IMG/VR virus record: IMGVR_UViG_3300013126_000028
Span: 1 to 64,000 of that record
Direction: 5' to 3' (one strand)
DNA length: 64,000 nt
Source of the DNA: a virus
A program made the translations under genes and the position numbers. Positions within the stretch are counted from its first letter, which is position 1. Every line of letters begins with the position of its first letter. Under the pieces are notes generated by a model that ran no database searches, was not told the DNA's origin, and worked only from the letters and a program-made list of their open reading frames with translations. Shown piece after piece: positions 17,944-45,400 of the stretch.

Positions 17944-19683
17944 TTAAGATATATCTGTTAATTCTCCGGGAATAATTTTACCATTAATATCAATACCTTT
18001 AGCTTTAACTTTTGGTTCGTGTAATTCATTAGGGTCTGTGAATACTTCTACTATACACCTTTGTGGATTTTTAAAAACTTTAGACAAAGTACTATCTATA
18101 TTTTTATTAGACCTAATACTATAATATTTATATTGAAAACATTTCGCAACATCTTCAAATGACGGAATGGATACTCCTGTATTCTGATCTGTTGCAACTA
18201 AGTGTCCTTTAAAGAATGAATTTTGTGTTAATTTAATGGATAAATATCCTTCATTATTAATAATCACAATAATAATAGGTAAATTATGATATTTGATAGT
18301 TTCTAATTCTTGTAAATTCATCATAATACTACCATCGCCCTCGATACAAATAATTGGCTTTTTACAACCATAGTATGCTCCAATAGATGCTGGTAAGCCA
18401 TAGCCCATTGGTGCTGTTCCTTCATTACTAAATAATTGCTGATCTCTTGTAAGATTCATGGTTTTTAAAGGAACAACATGAGCTGTTCCATCACTAGTTA
18501 CTATAACAGAGTCTGGTTTAAGATATTTTTCGAGTTTTTTACTAAAAACATATGTACTAACATAGCTCTTTAATGATTCGTGTTTTGGCAAAACCAAGTT
18601 TTCTTGTGATCTTTTATCGACAACATATTTTTGCCACGACTCAATATTTGACCCAGTAATATCTTTTGATATAACAAAAAAATCTTTTAGATCGATTTTC
18701 CATTTATATGTTGTTTTACTAAAATTTAATTTGGTTAATTCGTTCTCATCTATATCAATTATTATCTTTTTAGCTAACGGAGCAAATTTTTGACTATCGT
18801 ATCCTATCATCTTAGGATTTAATCTCGATCCTAGTGATATAATCAGATCACTTTCTTGAATAAGACAATTAGAGGTTTTTTGCCCCAACAAGCCGAAACG
18901 ACCAGCATAATATTGATAATCGGTATTTATTATATCTATCGCAGAGTGTGGGCCGGACATAACCGGTATCTTTAATCTATTTAGTAATTCTTTTAATTGT
19001 TCTTTGGTTCCAGATGATTTAATTCCGCCGCCAATAACTATTACTGGTTTTTTAGATTCGGTAATTAATTTTTTTAATTTATGTAGATAATATTTGTTTT
19101 TTATTTTATTTAGTAAAGATTTTGTATTATTAGCATAATAATGATGTAAATCCTCGGGGTTAACTTCAGCGCTTTGAATATCTAATGGAATGTCGATCCA
19201 TACCGGCCCCTGACGATTACTGACAGCTAGATGATATGCCTTTTCTAATTCGTAAAGAATATTATTAGCATCTGATACTAAAACAGAATACTTAGTCATA
19301 CTCTTAACGGTATCTACTATATTAAATTCTTGTTGTCCAATTTGTCTACATCCAGTATTTTTGCTTAATTGATTTGTTGGAACCTGACCGGAGATAATTA
19401 TCATTGGTGCAGAATCTTGAAAAGCACACAATACTCCGGTTAATGCGTTAGTTCCTCCTGGTCCGGTAGTTACCAAAATGCACCCAGGTTTTAATTTTGT
19501 TTTTGCATAACCCTCTGCGGCCATAGCACATGCTTGTTCGTGATGATTACATATATATTTTATAGACGTGTTCTTTCCCAAAGAATCTGTTAGGTGCATA
19601 CATCCTCCGCCAGAAACTGTAAAAACAGTATCTATACCTTTTTCCGCTATAAAATTAAAAACCAAATCTGAGACTTTTATCAT
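17944..19683 (-). CDS. ThDP-dependent acetolactate-synthase-like enzyme
   Basis: 579 residues, full length for the family. Pyr domain with catalytic Glu in NHHEQACAMAAEGYAK, GPGGTNALTGV; central FAD/ADP-like domain (VIVIGGGIKSSG); PP domain with the ThDP-Mg motif GDGSIMMN...IINN. It resembles IlvB but sits among sugar genes, like YerE, the ThDP enzyme that adds a two-carbon branch to a 3,6-dideoxy-4-keto sugar. A similar job here is inferred from the neighbouring RfbH-like dehydratase. The four-base overlap with the NeuB-like gene shows coupling. Confidence 0.82.
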   Translation of the reverse strand: MIKVSDLVFNFIAEKGIDTVFTVSGGGCMHLTDSLGKNTSIKYICNHHEQACAMAAEGYAKTKLKPGCILVTTGPGGTNALTGVLCAFQDSAPMIIISGQVPTNQLSKNTGCRQIGQQEFNIVDTVKSMTKYSVLVSDANNILYELEKAYHLAVSNRQGPVWIDIPLDIQSAEVNPEDLHHYYANNTKSLLNKIKNKYYLHKLKKLITESKKPVIVIGGGIKSSGTKEQLKELLNRLKIPVMSGPHSAIDIINTDYQYYAGRFGLLGQKTSNCLIQESDLIISLGSRLNPKMIGYDSQKFAPLAKKIIIDIDENELTKLNFSKTTYKWKIDLKDFFVISKDITGSNIESWQKYVVDKRSQENLVLPKHESLKSYVSTYVFSKKLEKYLKPDSVIVTSDGTAHVVPLKTMNLTRDQQLFSNEGTAPMGYGLPASIGAYYGCKKPIICIEGDGSIMMNLQELETIKYHNLPIIIVIINNEGYLSIKLTQNSFFKGHLVATDQNTGVSIPSFEDVAKCFQYKYYSIRSNKNIDSTLSKVFKNPQRCIVEVFTDPNELHEPKVKAKGIDINGKIIPGELTDIS

Positions 19684-36666: not shown

Positions 36667-36956
36667 TGCCCCCAGTCGGACTTGAACCGACAAGCCCTTA
36701 CGGGCAACAGATTTTCTTACCACTATAGTTTTCACTACCATTTCTGTTTGTGGTCTGGACTTTACCTTAACCATAACTTTCGTTTTAGGTTCCTGCCGTC
36801 AAGTCTCTACGCCTTCCTAATAAATTAGGCTTGGTTCGGTATTAGCATTTTAAAGCCTTCACCGACTTTGACAGGTTCTACTTTAAAGATTTCTCCTTAA
36901 GCACTCTATTATATATAAAAAAGTCTGTTGTGTTTGCCAATTTCACCATAGGGGCA
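36667..36956 (-). tRNA. tRNA-Leu(UAA) with a group I intron
   Basis: 5' exon 36921-36956 and 3' exon 36667-36715. Acceptor TGCCCCT/GGGGGCA is seven pairs, the anticodon stem ACAGA/TCTGT closes the loop CTTAAAA, the variable arm is long (GCCCGTAAGGGC), as required for tRNA-Leu, and the T arm is GTCGG-TTCAAGT-CCGAC. CCA is not encoded. The anticodon UAA is split by a 205-nt intron after its first base, exactly the position of the ancient tRNA-Leu(UAA) intron of cyanobacteria and plastids. Confidence 0.9.
36716..36920 (-). mobile_element. Group I intron in tRNA-Leu(UAA)
   Basis: 205 nt. The 5' exon ends in U, the intron ends in G, as in group I introns. GAGT near the 5' end can pair with the exon end (U.G plus three pairs) as P1. 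The core has the paired P7/R-S elements: GAGACTTGACGGCAGG and GGTAAAGTCCAGACC. No endonuclease gene lies within. It should self-splice; class IC3 by position and core. Confidence 0.8.
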
Positions 36957-36961
36957 TTAAA

Positions 36962-37064
36962 GTAATCGACTACAACAATTAGTAGTTTGAGGTTGATTAT
37001 GTTTGACTCTCAAGCATTATAACTGTTGTAATCGACTACCATAGTTTTAAATATCGACTCTCAA
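36962..37064 (-). repeat. Imperfect direct repeats between tRNA and HTH gene
   Basis: GTAGTCGATTAC occurs twice (36962-36973 and 37028-37039) and TTGAGAGTC twice (37005-37013 and 37056-37064), in alternating order. The second copies touch the stop codon of the HTH gene. They may be operator sites for that protein or traces of a duplication. Confidence 0.5.
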
Positions 37065-37342
37065 CCGTTATCGTGGCTCTTGAGGCGACGAACAAACTCT
37101 GCCATAGCCTCGACATTATCAACTGTCTTAGCGGGCTTTGCCCTTTCCATATTGGGTAGTTCGATACCCTTTTCTGCCAGAGCCTTTTTAGTACGAGCAA
37201 AACGAGCCATCGTACTAGCAACCTTCTGGCCTGTCTTGCTAGCAATCTCAGCATAAGTCTTGCTAGAATAAACAGCCTCTAGAAAACTCTCGTCGCTGCA
37301 ACGAACACGACTCTGCTTCTCAACATTAGTAACTTCAGCCAT
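37061..37342 (-). CDS. Small HTH-type DNA-binding protein
   Basis: 93 residues from ATG 37342 with GGAGG nine bases upstream. Residues 14-60 (SFLEAVYSSKTYAEIASKTGQKVASTMARF) fit a helix-turn-helix. Basic and abundant in Ala/Lys/Arg, it carries its own strong promoter and could be an early regulator or nucleoid-like protein. Repeats at its 3' end might be its targets. Confidence 0.65.
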   Translation of the reverse strand: MAEVTNVEKQSRVRCSDESFLEAVYSSKTYAEIASKTGQKVASTMARFARTKKALAEKGIELPNMERAKPAKTVDNVEAMAEFVRRLKSHDNG

Positions 37343-37418
37343 AATAATCAACCTCCAAATTTAAACTTCCAACTTCACGGTTTTGGTCACGCGACCTCAC
37401 CTGCCCGTGTTGTATACT

Positions 37419-37463: not shown

Positions 37464-37838
37464 TTACGATTTAACAGAACCAAAACAAACACACCAATAA
37501 GGAACCGAATGTTTTGACAAAGAATATCCACATCCAATAAGTGTAAACTTTTTGTTCATGATATTTTTTTTATGCCCAGTACTTTTCATCCAACTCTCCA
37601 TGACCTTTTCTTCTGTTCTCTGGCCTGCTGCTATATTTTCTCCAACAGAATTAAAACCCAAAGAGATTATATCTTTCAAATCTCCATGTTTTAAATCGTT
37701 CTTTCTTGCCATGTAGTCGCTCCACTCTTGAGCATAATTTGTTAACTTAATATCTTGAATTAAGAACGGTATTGACCAAAATAATGTTTTTTTTCTTTGT
37801 TGATTGTGTAATTCTATTAGTTTATCTAAGTTTATCAT
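37464..37838 (-). CDS. CAP/SCP-superfamily protein
   Basis: 124 residues. LHNQQRKK, YAQEWSDYMARKNDLKHGD, SVGENIAAGQ, VMESWMKSTGHKKNIMN and the final YWCVCFGS are the complete series of CAP (PR-1/SCP) motifs, with His and Glu ligands present. No signal peptide is seen, though bacterial members are usually secreted. Role in a phage unknown; lies beside a PspC-like membrane gene. Confidence 0.83.
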   Translation of the reverse strand: MINLDKLIELHNQQRKKTLFWSIPFLIQDIKLTNYAQEWSDYMARKNDLKHGDLKDIISLGFNSVGENIAAGQRTEEKVMESWMKSTGHKKNIMNKKFTLIGCGYSLSKHSVPYWCVCFGSVKS

Positions 37839-38939: not shown

Positions 38940-39470
38940 ATGACTATTGTTTTATACATATTATTGGCCATATTAGTTGCAGACTTATTAACAGGAATAT
39001 TTCATTGGTGGGAAGATAGATATGGAAATCCAAATTGGTTTATATTGGGTAAATATGTTATAGAACCTAATATTCGACATCATAAAGAGCCAATGTCTTT
39101 TTGTAAGGGAAATTATTGGACTAGAAATTGGACAACTTTAGTTCCAACTTTATTATTATCTATAGGTTGTTATATGGTTGGTTATTATTTTTTAAGTTTA
39201 GTTTTTATATGTGCCTCTCAAAGTAATGAAATACATTGTTGGGAACACACTAAAACTAATAAATTTATTAGATTTTTACAAAACTATAATATTTTGCAGA
39301 ATAAGAAGTGCCATGCTTTGCATCACAAAAGACCTTATGACACTAACTATTGTGTAATGACAATGGTAGTTAATCCTGTGCTAAACAAATTAAATTTTTG
39401 GTATTATTTAGAAAAATTGGTTTTTACTATCTTTAGAGTGAAACCTCGCAAAGAAAGAGAAATTTATTAA
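38940..39470 (+). CDS. CarF/TMEM189-like lipid desaturase (Kua domain)
   Basis: 176 residues on the otherwise minus-strand map. Two or three membrane helices and the His-box pattern of plasmanylethanolamine desaturase: GIFHWWEDRYG, NIRHHKEP, SNEIHCWEH, CHALHHKRP then NYCVMT and NPVLN. CarF and TMEM189 make the vinyl-ether bond of plasmalogens. Whether this phage protein acts on plasmalogen precursors or another lipid is unknown. Opposite orientation and separate promoter suggest a late acquisition (moron). Confidence 0.85.
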   Translation: MTIVLYILLAILVADLLTGIFHWWEDRYGNPNWFILGKYVIEPNIRHHKEPMSFCKGNYWTRNWTTLVPTLLLSIGCYMVGYYFLSLVFICASQSNEIHCWEHTKTNKFIRFLQNYNILQNKKCHALHHKRPYDTNYCVMTMVVNPVLNKLNFWYYLEKLVFTIFRVKPRKEREIY

Positions 39471-40167: not shown

Positions 40168-41085
40168 TCAAGTATCTCTTTTTTCTCCATAAAGATACTT
40201 AAAAGTAGGAAATCTTAGTGATTTTCCACCATCTTGGTTCTCAGTCTCTTCAAAATACTGAACCAAAATTTGCTTACCTAAAATTTTAGTAGGATCTTGA
40301 TAAAACTCTTGACGTTGTTTGATAGTGAAACCACTACCAACATCAACAGTATATCCTTTATGTACAATTATCGCATTAGATAACATGGTTTCCTCATGTT
40401 CTCTACCATCCTTCACATATCTAAATGGTCCGGTTGTAATCTGAACCACTTCATATTCACCATCATAAAAACTCTTATACTTCAATAAGTCTTTACTTCT
40501 TTTACCTTTGTATGGAGCATCAGCCCTAAACATAATACCCTCCCAATTATTGGTATTAGCCTTACCGGACCATTCATTAAAATCATCATCACAAGTAACT
40601 TTTTCGTGTTCAAGAACACTCAAACACTTACAGGTATTTTTTTTCATTACTTCATTAAGATTAGAATAGCGAATACTATAAGGTTTATTTTTATCTCCCT
40701 TTTTACTATAGAATTCGTCGTGACTAATCATATCAAAGATCTTATAGGAGGGATTCTCTAAGGTATGATCTTTCTTACGAATTTCTTTCATAACGCCCTG
40801 AAAATCTTCATTACCATTATCATCTATAAGACATAATTCTCCATCAAATACAACATTCTTAATTCCAAGATCTTTAATTCCACCAGCAACAACATCTAAA
40901 GTATCAAACGTCTTACCTGTTCTAGAATAAAAAGAAGAGTTTCCATCGTTGTCTACTATGGCAATAAGCCTACAATTATGTTTGAGTATACCATTAGCAA
41001 AAAAATTAGCATTATCAGCAACTTCTAGTTCGTATTTATCTTTTGATTCAATTTTTTCTATTGATTTAATTTTAATATTTTGCAT
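40168..41085 (-). CDS. DNA ligase C-terminal part fused to C-intein
   Basis: 305 residues. Residues 1-37 are a C-intein: block F ELEVADNANFFANGIL and block G LKHN, followed by Cys38 as the +1 residue. Residues 38-305 continue the ATP-dependent DNA ligase directly after the catalytic KLDG: CRLIAIVD, motif III FDGELCL, motif IV WEGIMFR, motif V LLKYK, then an OB domain. It cannot act alone as it lacks the AMP-lysine. Protein trans-splicing with the product of the gene at 42017 would recreate the ligase. AGGA precedes the ATG, inside the endonuclease gene. Confidence 0.92.
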   Translation of the reverse strand: MQNIKIKSIEKIESKDKYELEVADNANFFANGILKHNCRLIAIVDNDGNSSFYSRTGKTFDTLDVVAGGIKDLGIKNVVFDGELCLIDDNGNEDFQGVMKEIRKKDHTLENPSYKIFDMISHDEFYSKKGDKNKPYSIRYSNLNEVMKKNTCKCLSVLEHEKVTCDDDFNEWSGKANTNNWEGIMFRADAPYKGKRSKDLLKYKSFYDGEYEVVQITTGPFRYVKDGREHEETMLSNAIIVHKGYTVDVGSGFTIKQRQEFYQDPTKILGKQILVQYFEETENQDGGKSLRFPTFKYLYGEKRDT

Positions 41086-41963
41086 AATTTCCTTTCAATT
41101 TTTCCTATGTCTTTTTGTATATCTGATACCCAAAAACAGTATATCTTATAACCAAAACTTTTCAAATGATTAACACGAATTTTGTCTTTTTTCCAAATAT
41201 CTTTAGCGCACAATTCCCCATCCCATGTTATAATAATATCATTTGGTTTATATGTTTTAGGATTAGCGTGAAATGTATCTCCGTAAATTTCAATAATAAT
41301 TTTTTTATTTTCAATAATTATATCTGGTCTAGGATTATATTTTCTTTTTAAACTTTTATTATATCTATTAAAATTTATGTCTTCTGTGTTTTCGCTAATA
41401 TAAATTATATTATATTTATCTAATATAGTCTCTATTCTTTTATGTGGTATAGATTTTTTACCATTATTTCTTCTGTAACTTGGTAAATCAACTGAATTTT
41501 CAATTCCATATTTTTTTATCATTGTCTGTCTACTCTTTTGCTTAATAGACTCAACTTGAAAAATATTGGTAATACCCTTTCCGTATTTTTTCTCTAATGT
41601 TTTTTTGGTTGTTGGGGATTGAAAAGCGTTTTTATATCCGTATTTTTTGATATTTGTTTCCTCCCTCTGACGCTTTGTAATGGGATTATTCATAGCCTCT
41701 TTAATTGTCTGAGTCTTAATTCCTAATTTTTTACATCTTTCAATTATGTGTCTTGTTTTTATTTTTGGATCATTTAATTCTATTTCTAGAGAATAACATG
41801 AACGCTTAAATTTAATAATATGTTTAGTCAAATATTTTTTTGTTAGGATATTATTTCTATAGCAAGATATATATTTATTATACTCCTCACATTTTGCTTG
41901 ATGTCCGTATAATTGTTTTTTGGTTTTTAACCCAGTTTTATTACAATATTTACATTTCATCAT
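41058..41963 (-). CDS. EDxHD-type homing endonuclease in the ligase fracture
   Basis: 301 residues. N-terminal Cys-His zinc finger (CKYCNKTGL, then GHQAKC). The C-terminal domain is Vsr-like: RPDIIIENKKIIIEIYGDTFHANP with Glu, Asp and His of the EDxHD set, AKDIWKKDKIR giving the final acid and KIYCFWVSDI closing the fold. Such endonucleases were described inside split-intein fractured genes. It sits between the two ligase halves and overlaps the C-intein gene by 28 bases. It has its own GGTGTATTAAATA motif. Confidence 0.85.
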   Translation of the reverse strand: MMKCKYCNKTGLKTKKQLYGHQAKCEEYNKYISCYRNNILTKKYLTKHIIKFKRSCYSLEIELNDPKIKTRHIIERCKKLGIKTQTIKEAMNNPITKRQREETNIKKYGYKNAFQSPTTKKTLEKKYGKGITNIFQVESIKQKSRQTMIKKYGIENSVDLPSYRRNNGKKSIPHKRIETILDKYNIIYISENTEDINFNRYNKSLKRKYNPRPDIIIENKKIIIEIYGDTFHANPKTYKPNDIIITWDGELCAKDIWKKDKIRVNHLKSFGYKIYCFWVSDIQKDIGKIERKLCKILKLNQ

Positions 41964-41977
41964 AATCTCCTCGTTAG

Positions 41978-41990
41978 TATTTAATACACC
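41978..41990 (-). promoter_or_regulatory. GGTGTATTAAATA promoter candidate
   Basis: Minus strand GGTGTATTAAATA, 15 bases before the endonuclease ATG, with GAGGAG in between. Member of the GGTGTAT motif set. Confidence 0.4.
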
Positions 41991-42016
41991 AATATCGAGA
42001 AAACTAGATGGAAAAT

Positions 42017-42844
42017 TTAATTGCTAAAAAGAATTTCTTCGTTTCCGTTCAATTCATCTACACGACGATAGCATTTTAATTTAGGAACATATACTGTGTC
42101 GTTGCCAGTGATATTAAGAATGACTCCATTTTCTAATGTAATTTTATACCATTGTGTAGGTTTAGTTTCAGAAATGTCGTGCAAATTTTTCATATGATTT
42201 ATAATAGGCTTATACTCTATTTTTTTACTTTTATGATTATAACACTTAACATTACCTACTATTTTATTGTCTATTACATAACCTACTGGTAAACGATCAC
42301 CATTATCAAACTCTACAATGGTATTATAATCAACACACCCGTCTAGTTTGCGTGAGACAAACCAGCCATCTTCCCAATCCACAATATTGGGGTCAAATTT
42401 ATCGGCCAAAGCCACACTAAACTCTGGAATCAAGTTTGGTATTGCTTTATTTAAGATCTTATCGCCCGCCCTGGTTTTTAAGTCCTTGTCAATAACACAA
42501 TGAATAAGTTCCTCATACTCATCATTATGTTCAATAAAACTATTTACCGCCGCAATAGCATCATGACCAGTAATTTTGCGACTCTTTAGATCGTCGAGAA
42601 GATCAAAGAAATTATTGTATTCGTTCTTTCGTGAGACAAGATGATTTTTCTTCTTTAGATTGTCGCTTGTAATATTGTATTGCCAAAGAGGATGGTAAGT
42701 ATATCGAAGAATATTTTTAGCAAAATTTGCTGATGCTGTGTTGTGTCCACAATAATCAAGGATAATACCTTCTTTATCTTTGGTGCTACTTGTGGCCCTA
42801 AGATCACGAACCATTCCCCAAACATAATCAAAATCGTGAATCAT
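42017..42844 (-). CDS. DNA ligase N-terminal part fused to N-intein
   Basis: 275 residues. Residues 1-169 are the N-terminal domain of a phage-type ATP-dependent DNA ligase ending in SRKLDG with the adenylated lysine at 166. Residue 170 is the catalytic Cys1 of an N-intein of 106 residues: block A CVDYNTIVEFDNG, block B-like YKITLENGVILNITGND, then YRRVDELNGNEEI. The usual block B His (TxxH) is Asp here (TGND). AGGAG precedes the ATG and a strong promoter lies 25 bases upstream. Ligation needs splicing to the C-terminal half. Confidence 0.92.
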   Translation of the reverse strand: MIHDFDYVWGMVRDLRATSSTKDKEGIILDYCGHNTASANFAKNILRYTYHPLWQYNITSDNLKKKNHLVSRKNEYNNFFDLLDDLKSRKITGHDAIAAVNSFIEHNDEYEELIHCVIDKDLKTRAGDKILNKAIPNLIPEFSVALADKFDPNIVDWEDGWFVSRKLDGCVDYNTIVEFDNGDRLPVGYVIDNKIVGNVKCYNHKSKKIEYKPIINHMKNLHDISETKPTQWYKITLENGVILNITGNDTVYVPKLKCYRRVDELNGNEEILFSN

Positions 42845-44790: not shown

Positions 44791-44818
44791 TTGCATTCTT
44801 ATAATTATTGTGTATTAT
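44791..44818 (+). promoter_or_regulatory. Plus-strand promoter of the HNH gene
   Basis: TTGCAT, 16 bp, TATTAT, diverging from the tmRNA promoter, about 20 bases before ATG 44840. Confidence 0.6.
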
Positions 44819-44839
44819 ATGGTAAGGGGTTCGATTCAG

Positions 44840-45400
44840 ATGAAAGATAAAATCTTAAATCTTCGTAAAAAAGGCTTATCTTATAACGATATCCAAAAGA
44901 AATTAAAGTGTTCAAAAGCAACAATTAGTTATCATTGTGGTAAAGGACAAAAAAAGAAGAACGATTTGCGTAGGCGAAGGCGTAGATCGTCTAATATACT
45001 AAGAAATAAAATAGAAAATTTTAAATACAAACAAAAAACAGAAATTATATATGAAAAAGATCATCGTAATGTTCGCAAAATTTTACAAATTAAATTGAGT
45101 TTTTTTAGTATGAACAGAAAAACAAAAAAGGTAAAGCAAAAATTTTCTTTACAGGACTTAGTAGATAAAATTGGAGATAATCCAACCTGCTATTTAACTG
45201 GTAGACCTATAGATTTATCTGATGGACGATCATATCATTTAGATCACATCGTTCCAGTTAGTAAAGGTGGTTCAAACGATTTATCAAATTGTCAAATAGC
45301 GTGTAAAGAAGCAAACCAAGCAAAGAGCAATTTGTCTTATGATGAATTCATTAAACTTTGTCAAGAAGTGATTCATAAAAGTCCCAAGCCTGGGAGTTAA
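44840..45400 (+). CDS. HNH endonuclease with N-terminal HTH
   Basis: 186 residues from ATG 44840 (GGGG ten bases upstream). Residues 1-35 are a helix-turn-helix (LSYNDIQKKLKCSKATISYHC), 40-70 very basic, and 120-175 the HNH domain CYLTGRPI...YHLDHIVPVSKGGSNDLSNCQIACKEANQAKSN. Typical free-standing homing endonuclease inserted between RNA genes; one of only two plus-strand genes. Its 3' end overlaps the tRNA-Ile gene on the other strand. Confidence 0.85.
   Translation: MKDKILNLRKKGLSYNDIQKKLKCSKATISYHCGKGQKKKNDLRRRRRRSSNILRNKIENFKYKQKTEIIYEKDHRNVRKILQIKLSFFSMNRKTKKVKQKFSLQDLVDKIGDNPTCYLTGRPIDLSDGRSYHLDHIVPVSKGGSNDLSNCQIACKEANQAKSNLSYDEFIKLCQEVIHKSPKPGS

Follow-up and report, generated by a model that had tools for sequence, protein, structure and literature searches.

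Does a group I intron in a phage tRNA gene record its capture from a bacterial host, or can such an intron move among phages in its own right? The question is raised by a 64,000-nucleotide stretch of viral DNA (positions 1 to 64,000 of the IMG/VR record IMGVR_UViG_3300013126_000028), hereafter the window. An earlier note on this DNA had described a group I intron in a tRNA-Leu(UAA) gene, had recognized in it the position and core elements of the ancient intron that cyanobacteria and plastids carry in the same tRNA (Kuhsel et al. 1990, as relayed by PMC3984707), and had read its presence in a phage as a sign of capture from an intron-bearing host and a possible clue to host lineage or to gene transfer by phages. 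According to a 2014 review, the phage group I introns then known were all in protein genes, despite the many tRNAs that phages encode (PMC3984707). We found no published account of group I introns in phage tRNA genes in the open literature, preprints and subscription papers being outside the coverage of that search. The intron family is known, as that of the bacterial tRNA IC3 introns, and its setting in a phage tRNA is new to the open literature covered by that search.

The split tRNA gene and its intron

The minus strand of the window contains a whole tRNA-Leu(UAA) gene (36667-36955), in which a 205-nt group I intron interrupts the sequence after U34; the position first proposed, 36667-36956, was right to within one base, and no strand had been given. 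When introns are allowed, ARAGORN reports this as the single tRNA gene of the window (tRNA-Leu(UAA), c36666-36956, intron of 205 nt); without introns it finds no tRNA in the 64 kb. A default Rfam scan of the whole window also missed the intron. In a focused Rfam scan, however, it matched RF00028 at 36930-36734 (minus strand) with 56.2 bits against a gathering cut-off of 50 (E-value 1.8e-13 for 801 nt and 3.5e-15 for the whole record), and together with the ARAGORN model this upholds the original identification. Chance similarity or a pseudogene is ruled out by the RF00028 score, the gene model and the covariation described below. Two further weak Rfam matches, MIR2600 and Plastid-ycf2, are an upstream hairpin and the reverse strand of the 3′ part of the tRNA, respectively, and neither is a true member of its family.

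Read by hand, the mature tRNA is 36955-36921 joined to 36715-36667 (GCCCCTATGGTGAAATTGGCAAACACAACAGACTT followed by AAAATCTGTTGCCCGTAAGGGCTTGTCGGTTCAAGTCCGACTGGGGGC-A), with the intron at 36920-36716. The 5′ exon (36921-36955, minus strand), which is also delimited by the intronless orthologous genes of relatives, ends in ACAGA-CUU, the last base being U34, and forms a 7-bp acceptor stem with the 3′ exon (36667-36715, minus strand). The latter begins AAAA-UCUGU and supplies a long variable arm, the T arm and discriminator A; CCA is not encoded. The anticodon loop reads CU-U before the intron and AA-AA after it, which places the insertion after the first anticodon base, as had been claimed. There is no ORF within the 205-nt intron. 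A UUA-reading tRNA is plausible cargo for this AT-rich phage, as UUA is its commonest leucine codon; in the 39 large ORFs used for the count, TTA makes up 40% of leucine codons and about 31 of every 1000 codons, and the window has 32% G+C. Between the tRNA and the neighbouring 96-aa gene lies a strong hairpin (36957-37045, minus strand; -30.7 kcal/mol, z -7.1), possibly a terminator or processing site, and a similar inverted repeat is also found upstream of the tRNA in relatives.

The fold of the intron was evaluated in an alignment of 48 phage introns, each less than 88% identical to any other, in which P2, P3, P4, P5, P6/P6a, P7, P8 and P9 were counted, with P3 and P7 crossing. Across these introns 95.2% of cells are paired, against 24-43% when the structure is slid; 36 of the 50 pairs have changed in both partners, and covariation scores 0.511 where shuffles give 0.167. 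The presence of P3 to P8, on which the earlier identification hung, is therefore borne out. All elements lie on the minus strand. The internal guide sequence GAGU (36903-36906) is complementary to exon ACUU, with which it forms P1; GAG is invariant in all 48 introns, 153 of 154 phage tRNAs with an intron have GACUU in the exon, and the U.G pair at the 5′ splice site, composed of U34 before the intron and G15 of GAGU, is conserved. P2 (36883-36900; helices 1-2) is a hairpin with a GAAA loop, all seven pairs of which have compensatory changes, whilst P3 (5′ strand 36870-36875, 3′ strand 36792-36797; helix 3) is 99% paired with such changes in four of six pairs. P4 and a short P5 span 36836-36865 (helices 4-5), P4 pairing 36861-36865 with 36836-36840, and P5abc is absent. 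In P6/P6a (36812-36834; helices 6-7) C-G is swapped for G-C at 36833/36813 in 10 of the 48 introns. P7, the guanosine site helix that is pseudoknotted with P3 (5′ strand 36801-36805, 3′ strand 36758-36762; helix 8), is 99.6% paired, and comprises four near-invariant pairs and a fifth, inner pair that swaps between A-U and U-A in 20 of 48. P8 (36770-36790; helices 9-10) and the P9 region with its GAAA-capped hairpin (36719-36754; helices 11-14) are likewise defined by covariation, and the terminal G at 36716 is conserved.

Covariation thus gives the pseudoknotted P3-P7 core with P4-P6 that characterizes group I introns, and the alignment displays the traits of subgroup IC3, a compact core without P5abc and GNRA-capped P2 and P9. 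The window intron is a member of the bacterial tRNA (IC3-like) group I family. Its pattern of variation is what selection for splicing looks like and, on this comparative evidence, the intron presumably splices. The Azoarcus tRNA-Ile(CAU) IC3 intron, for the structure of which PMC3984707 gives the reference, is similarly compact, sits in an anticodon loop and has similar core motifs, but occupies another tRNA at another position.

A second group I intron, considered for the ATP-dependent DNA ligase gene of the window (40168-42844, minus strand), gave no Rfam match; the gene is instead broken up by a split intein. The N part of the ligase (42017-42844, minus strand) ends in the intein N-segment (KLDG followed by CVDYNTIV), and the C part (40168-41085, minus strand) begins with the intein C-segment (FFANGILKHN followed by C; Pfam Intein_splicing). 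Between them is a DUF559 ORF (41058-41963), presumably a Vsr-like nuclease, and the ligase gene is contiguous in 82 relatives. Metabolic or host-like genes of the window encode an acetolactate-synthase-like protein (17944-19683), a lipid desaturase domain protein (38940-39470) and a CAP-domain protein (37464-37838).

Presence and absence of the intron at one tRNA locus

The 96-aa neighbour gene (37061-37351, minus strand) is conserved, and in most relatives tRNA-Leu(UAA) lies about 100 nt downstream of it. Relatives were gathered through this gene, blind to the intron, and the best 80 of 110 confirmed ones were kept. Among these 80, the intron is present in 20 loci and 53 were scored as having an intronless tRNA downstream (nearly all tRNA-Leu(UAA), mostly about 100 nt from the 96-aa gene); in two no tRNA was found, and five are cut off. 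When mapped on a tree built from eight flanking genes, the intron has changed state at least 11 times, by repeated gain or loss, and the window's closest neighbours lack it. The empty sites are precise: in the pair L443 (with intron) and L444 (without), the exons differ at only 2 of 72 bases, and L413/L421 and L405/L403 are further such pairs. The type of tRNA body, with a long or a short variable arm, also changes at least 11 times at the same locus. Divergence of the introns is in conflict with that of the genomes; in intron-bearing members the introns differ by at most 17% and the flanking proteins by up to 43% (loosely correlated, r 0.43), and in L429/L401 flanks that are 43% different surround introns that are 5% different, in different tRNA types.

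The short (class I) variable arm, unlike that of a normal tRNA-Leu, occurs in the tRNA(UAA) of L059, L107, L250 and L251 and in the intronless L400 and L444; at this one locus short-arm and long-arm genes replace each other. Phages P-SSM7, ZC03 and LP65 have annotated tRNA-Leu genes that are similar.

One might argue that the intron was inherited vertically from an intron-bearing ancestor of the lineage and then lost precisely, many times, by recombination, with no current mobility. Indeed a patchy distribution with precise empty sites fits losses as well as gains, parsimony being blind to the difference; exact removal of the intron, time after time, by recombination with intronless alleles would also look patchy, and no HNH gene lies beside the window tRNA. 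It should be stressed, however, that near-identical introns occur in divergent genomes and in different tRNA bodies, which argues for horizontal spread and for which repeated loss alone is insufficient. Part of the similarity may stem from constraint, although other phage introns differ far more. In addition, the intron is missing from most members of the lineage, among them those closest to the window on the flank tree, introns are also found in other tRNA species, and HNH genes lie in and beside the intron. Vertical inheritance followed by loss is, we believe, unlikely, even though it withstands the evidence better than the other alternatives to mobility.

HNH endonucleases in and beside the intron

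An HNH sequence is located inside seven phage introns of 668-809 nt (L005, L292, L303, L316, L325, L352 and L346, near-copies being counted once). In six of the seven it is a readable ORF in the tRNA strand, and in L346 it is on the opposite strand. HNH of the same kind is also encoded in bacterial introns from Bacilli and Bacteroidota, and in 21 additional distinct loci a gene of the same family lies outside the intron, no more than 60 nt from the tRNA. In the lineage of the window the HNH gene abuts the 3′ end of the tRNA in convergent orientation (L013, L020, L054, L075, L108, L114, L116, L250, L251 and L453), and in another group a gene of the same family is always found 136 nt upstream of the tRNA. 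In the lineage sample a 3′-abutting HNH gene of this family accompanies 5 of 20 intron-bearing loci but only 1 of 53 intronless ones (Fisher p 0.005, the rows not being independent). No HNH of the intron-associated family is present in the 64 kb of the window, and 66 of 122 distinct intron-bearing loci, many of them on contigs that are fragments, lack one within 1.5 kb.

A free-standing HTH-HNH gene of the window (44810-45400, plus strand), on the strand opposite to its neighbours, is the only HNH in the 65.6-kb record. It was rejected as the partner of the intron, as it belongs to another, unrelated subfamily and lies 8 kb from the tRNA. Four intronless relatives (L376, L377, L435 and L436) have a free-standing HNH gene of a different subfamily inserted 7-8 nt upstream of tRNA-Leu(UAA) and oriented against it.

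The window intron is probably a self-splicing tRNA intron whose spread among phages is due to HNH-driven homing, for the most part in trans. After transcription, exon ACUU would pair with intron GAGU to form P1, a guanosine bound at P7 would attack after U34, and the released exon would then attack after the terminal G, generating an intact tRNA that reads UUA/UUG. Because it splices, the intron would be harmless or near neutral and could persist as a selfish element. An HNH enzyme, encoded within longer versions of the intron or by a gene beside the tRNA, would cleave tRNA genes that lack the intron, which would then be copied in as the break is repaired from an intron-bearing genome; nuclease-free copies such as that of the window would either have moved in trans, by collaborative homing, or be relics. 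We infer splicing and homing, the cleavage site and specificity of the HNH, and co-conversion as the process behind the exchange of tRNA bodies.

Collaborative homing, in which a free-standing endonuclease is aimed at the insertion site of an intron, is known from cyanophage psbA (Zeng et al. 2009, as summarized in PMC3984707), and one suggestion is that the movement of ORF-less introns in trans is a stage on the way to composite mobile introns (PMC3984707, citing Zeng et al. 2009). Some of the phage tRNA loci resemble that system in combining an ORF-less intron with a neighbouring free-standing endonuclease gene; intron-plus and intron-minus alleles with precise junctions exist, and such a gene lies next to the tRNA in about 20 related loci, although it is absent from the window fragment. 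They differ from the cyanophage case in that the target is a tRNA, the nuclease is an HNH, and members of its family also occur within the intron.

Related introns in phages, bacteria and plasmids

To collect further examples IMG/VR was searched with the core pattern and additional scans, and exon boundaries were redefined by pairing rules. Such introns are present in at least 154 phage loci, at least 136 in tRNA(UAA), at least 16 in tRNA-Lys(UUU) and at least two in tRNA-Thr(UGU), these counts being minimum numbers and not frequencies. ARAGORN labels many of these tRNAs Phe or Ser, because it places the intron boundary one or two bases off; with the boundaries reset by pairing rules, insertion among the phage loci listed (Leu, Lys and Thr) is always after U34, between CUU and NNAA. 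Carriers among known phages include Agrobacterium phage Atu_ph07, the paper on which does not mention the intron, and the huge uncultured phages LR756501 and LR756511; a Microcoleus phage has an intron in tRNA-Arg(CCU). Related short group I introns with no detectable tRNA (L030/L056, L062, L069, L066, L109 and others) are probably in protein genes such as that of the capsid, and the introns of L004 and L006 lie between pieces of a capsid gene.

The Lys and Thr introns of phages are scattered over more than one position among the phage Leu introns, which suggests several jumps between tRNA species. It is conceivable that the intron spreads between tRNA genes by reverse splicing into other anticodon loops rather than by endonucleases, a route proposed generally for group I introns (PMC3984707) and consistent with insertion always after CUU, the complement of the guide, in Leu, Lys and Thr tRNAs. 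Reverse splicing, however, requires reverse transcription and leaves the association with HNH genes unexplained. It may hold for jumps between tRNA species only, and as an account of spread between tRNA genes in general we find it doubtful, more so than vertical inheritance with loss.

Very improbable, in our view, is the proposal that the intron is retained for a function, with splicing regulating or protecting the tRNA, for example through a precursor resistant to host anticodon nucleases or through GTP-linked splicing. The structure is under strong purifying selection, and phage tRNAs are known to count against tRNA-cutting defences (PMC13096335). Such selection is, however, equally expected for any intron that is obliged to splice, and the intron is dispensable, as most orthologous tRNA genes lack it.

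With respect to bacteria, a scan revealed tRNA-Leu(UAA) genes with this type of intron in Alpha-, Beta- and Gammaproteobacteria, Acidobacteria, Planctomycetes and Chloroflexi, and also in Bdellovibrionota, Vulcanimicrobiota, Bacilli, Clostridia and Bacteroidota. As the intron is so widely distributed in non-cyanobacterial phyla it is no marker of host lineage. Compared across 195 core columns, introns of the same phage lineage match that of the window at 93% identity, and the figure falls to 76% for the best bacterial match (L243, from an AT-rich alphaproteobacterium, where the flanking genes are chromosomal) and to 65% for the best of five cyanobacterial introns, a reference set obtained by searching cyanobacterial genomes. 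In a tree of 208 introns the window falls in an all-phage clade of 35 rows (SH-aLRT 98); in a smaller, more careful tree it is in an all-phage clade of 15 rows and a mostly phage clade of 41 (both 99/93), and the cyanobacterial introns form a separate clade (100/100). Forcing the lineage of the window together with the cyanobacteria lowers the log-likelihood by 24, a grouping that the AU test does not reject (p 0.25). Deep branching is thus weakly resolved, and our claim is limited to a close cyanobacterial tie being unsupported. Recent cyanobacterial capture was rejected on the identity of 65% and the tree placement, with the caveat of that AU value. Two Bacteroidota introns nest among phage introns (the context of one, L190, is chromosomal), indicating that exchange with bacteria also happens. 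The rIIA/rIIB proteins of the window phage are at most 43% identical to those of cultured phages.

The likeness to the cyanobacterial and plastid intron is real in that gene, site after U34, core, guide GAG and terminal G are the same. The phage intron, in contrast, has a core identity of 65%, a separate clade and a shorter P6b, and phage introns are mobile-looking, with HNH partners. The tRNA-Leu(UAA) introns of Alphaproteobacteria and other bacteria (L128-L247), the closest non-phage sequences at 76%, share site and architecture; they differ in being chromosomal and mostly without HNH, although a few (Bacilli, Bacteroidota) encode HNH of the same kind. The least probable reading is that the whole tRNA-Leu(UAA) and its intron were captured from a bacterial host, cyanobacterial or other: such introns are found in many bacterial phyla, the chromosomal alphaproteobacterial L243 is 76% identical and a deep cyanobacterial tie is compatible with the AU test, but the nearest relatives are all phage introns (93%), cyanobacterial introns stand at 65% and at this locus most orthologues in the lineage are intronless, so that capture as a recent event is disfavoured and an old bacterial origin of the whole phage intron clade is possible. 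The gene transfer by phages that had been suggested thus survives as spread of the intron from phage to phage, and not as capture from a host. Present in some and absent in others of the tRNA genes of many viruses, whether related or not, such introns behave as a mobile element carried by viruses rather than as one gene taken from a cyanobacterium.

Introns of this type are also found on enterobacterial plasmids, where a matching intron sequence occurs in 1238 plasmid records. In E. coli plasmid CP042600.1 (L248) the intron, at 1501-1706, interrupts a tRNA-Leu(UAA) gene that is complete and lies close to IS26 and aac(3)-II; it groups inside alphaproteobacterial introns, and this position in the tree suggests an alphaproteobacterial source of the plasmid segment.

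The group I introns of T4 td, nrdB and nrdD, of Twort and of pelagiphage capsid genes (L004/L006) are, like those described here, phage-borne, some ORF-less and some with endonucleases, and the capsid-gene introns have short core similarity to the window intron; they differ in being inserted in protein genes. Introns in phage tRNAs are common in public virus contigs and have been missed because default tRNA and Rfam scans skip them, and phage tRNA sets are under-counted. HNH-driven homing as the probable mode of spread of the window intron can be placed in a wider, more tentative proposal, which we hold to be slightly short of an even chance: that phages own a mobile family of anticodon-loop introns, which would hop among phages and among tRNA-Leu, -Lys and -Thr with the help of HNH enzymes encoded inside the intron or beside the tRNA, co-conversion replacing the tRNA bodies. 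One locus family displays all arrangements, with the nuclease inside the intron, beside it or absent, and at one well-sampled locus there are intron-plus and intron-minus alleles and tRNA bodies exchanged around the intron. This makes two questions testable, namely the way in which mobile introns gain their endonucleases and the means by which tRNA introns pass from one genome to another. If the proposal is true, the intron would drive the turnover of phage tRNA genes, and these loci would provide a natural series for how an endonuclease and an intron join into one element.
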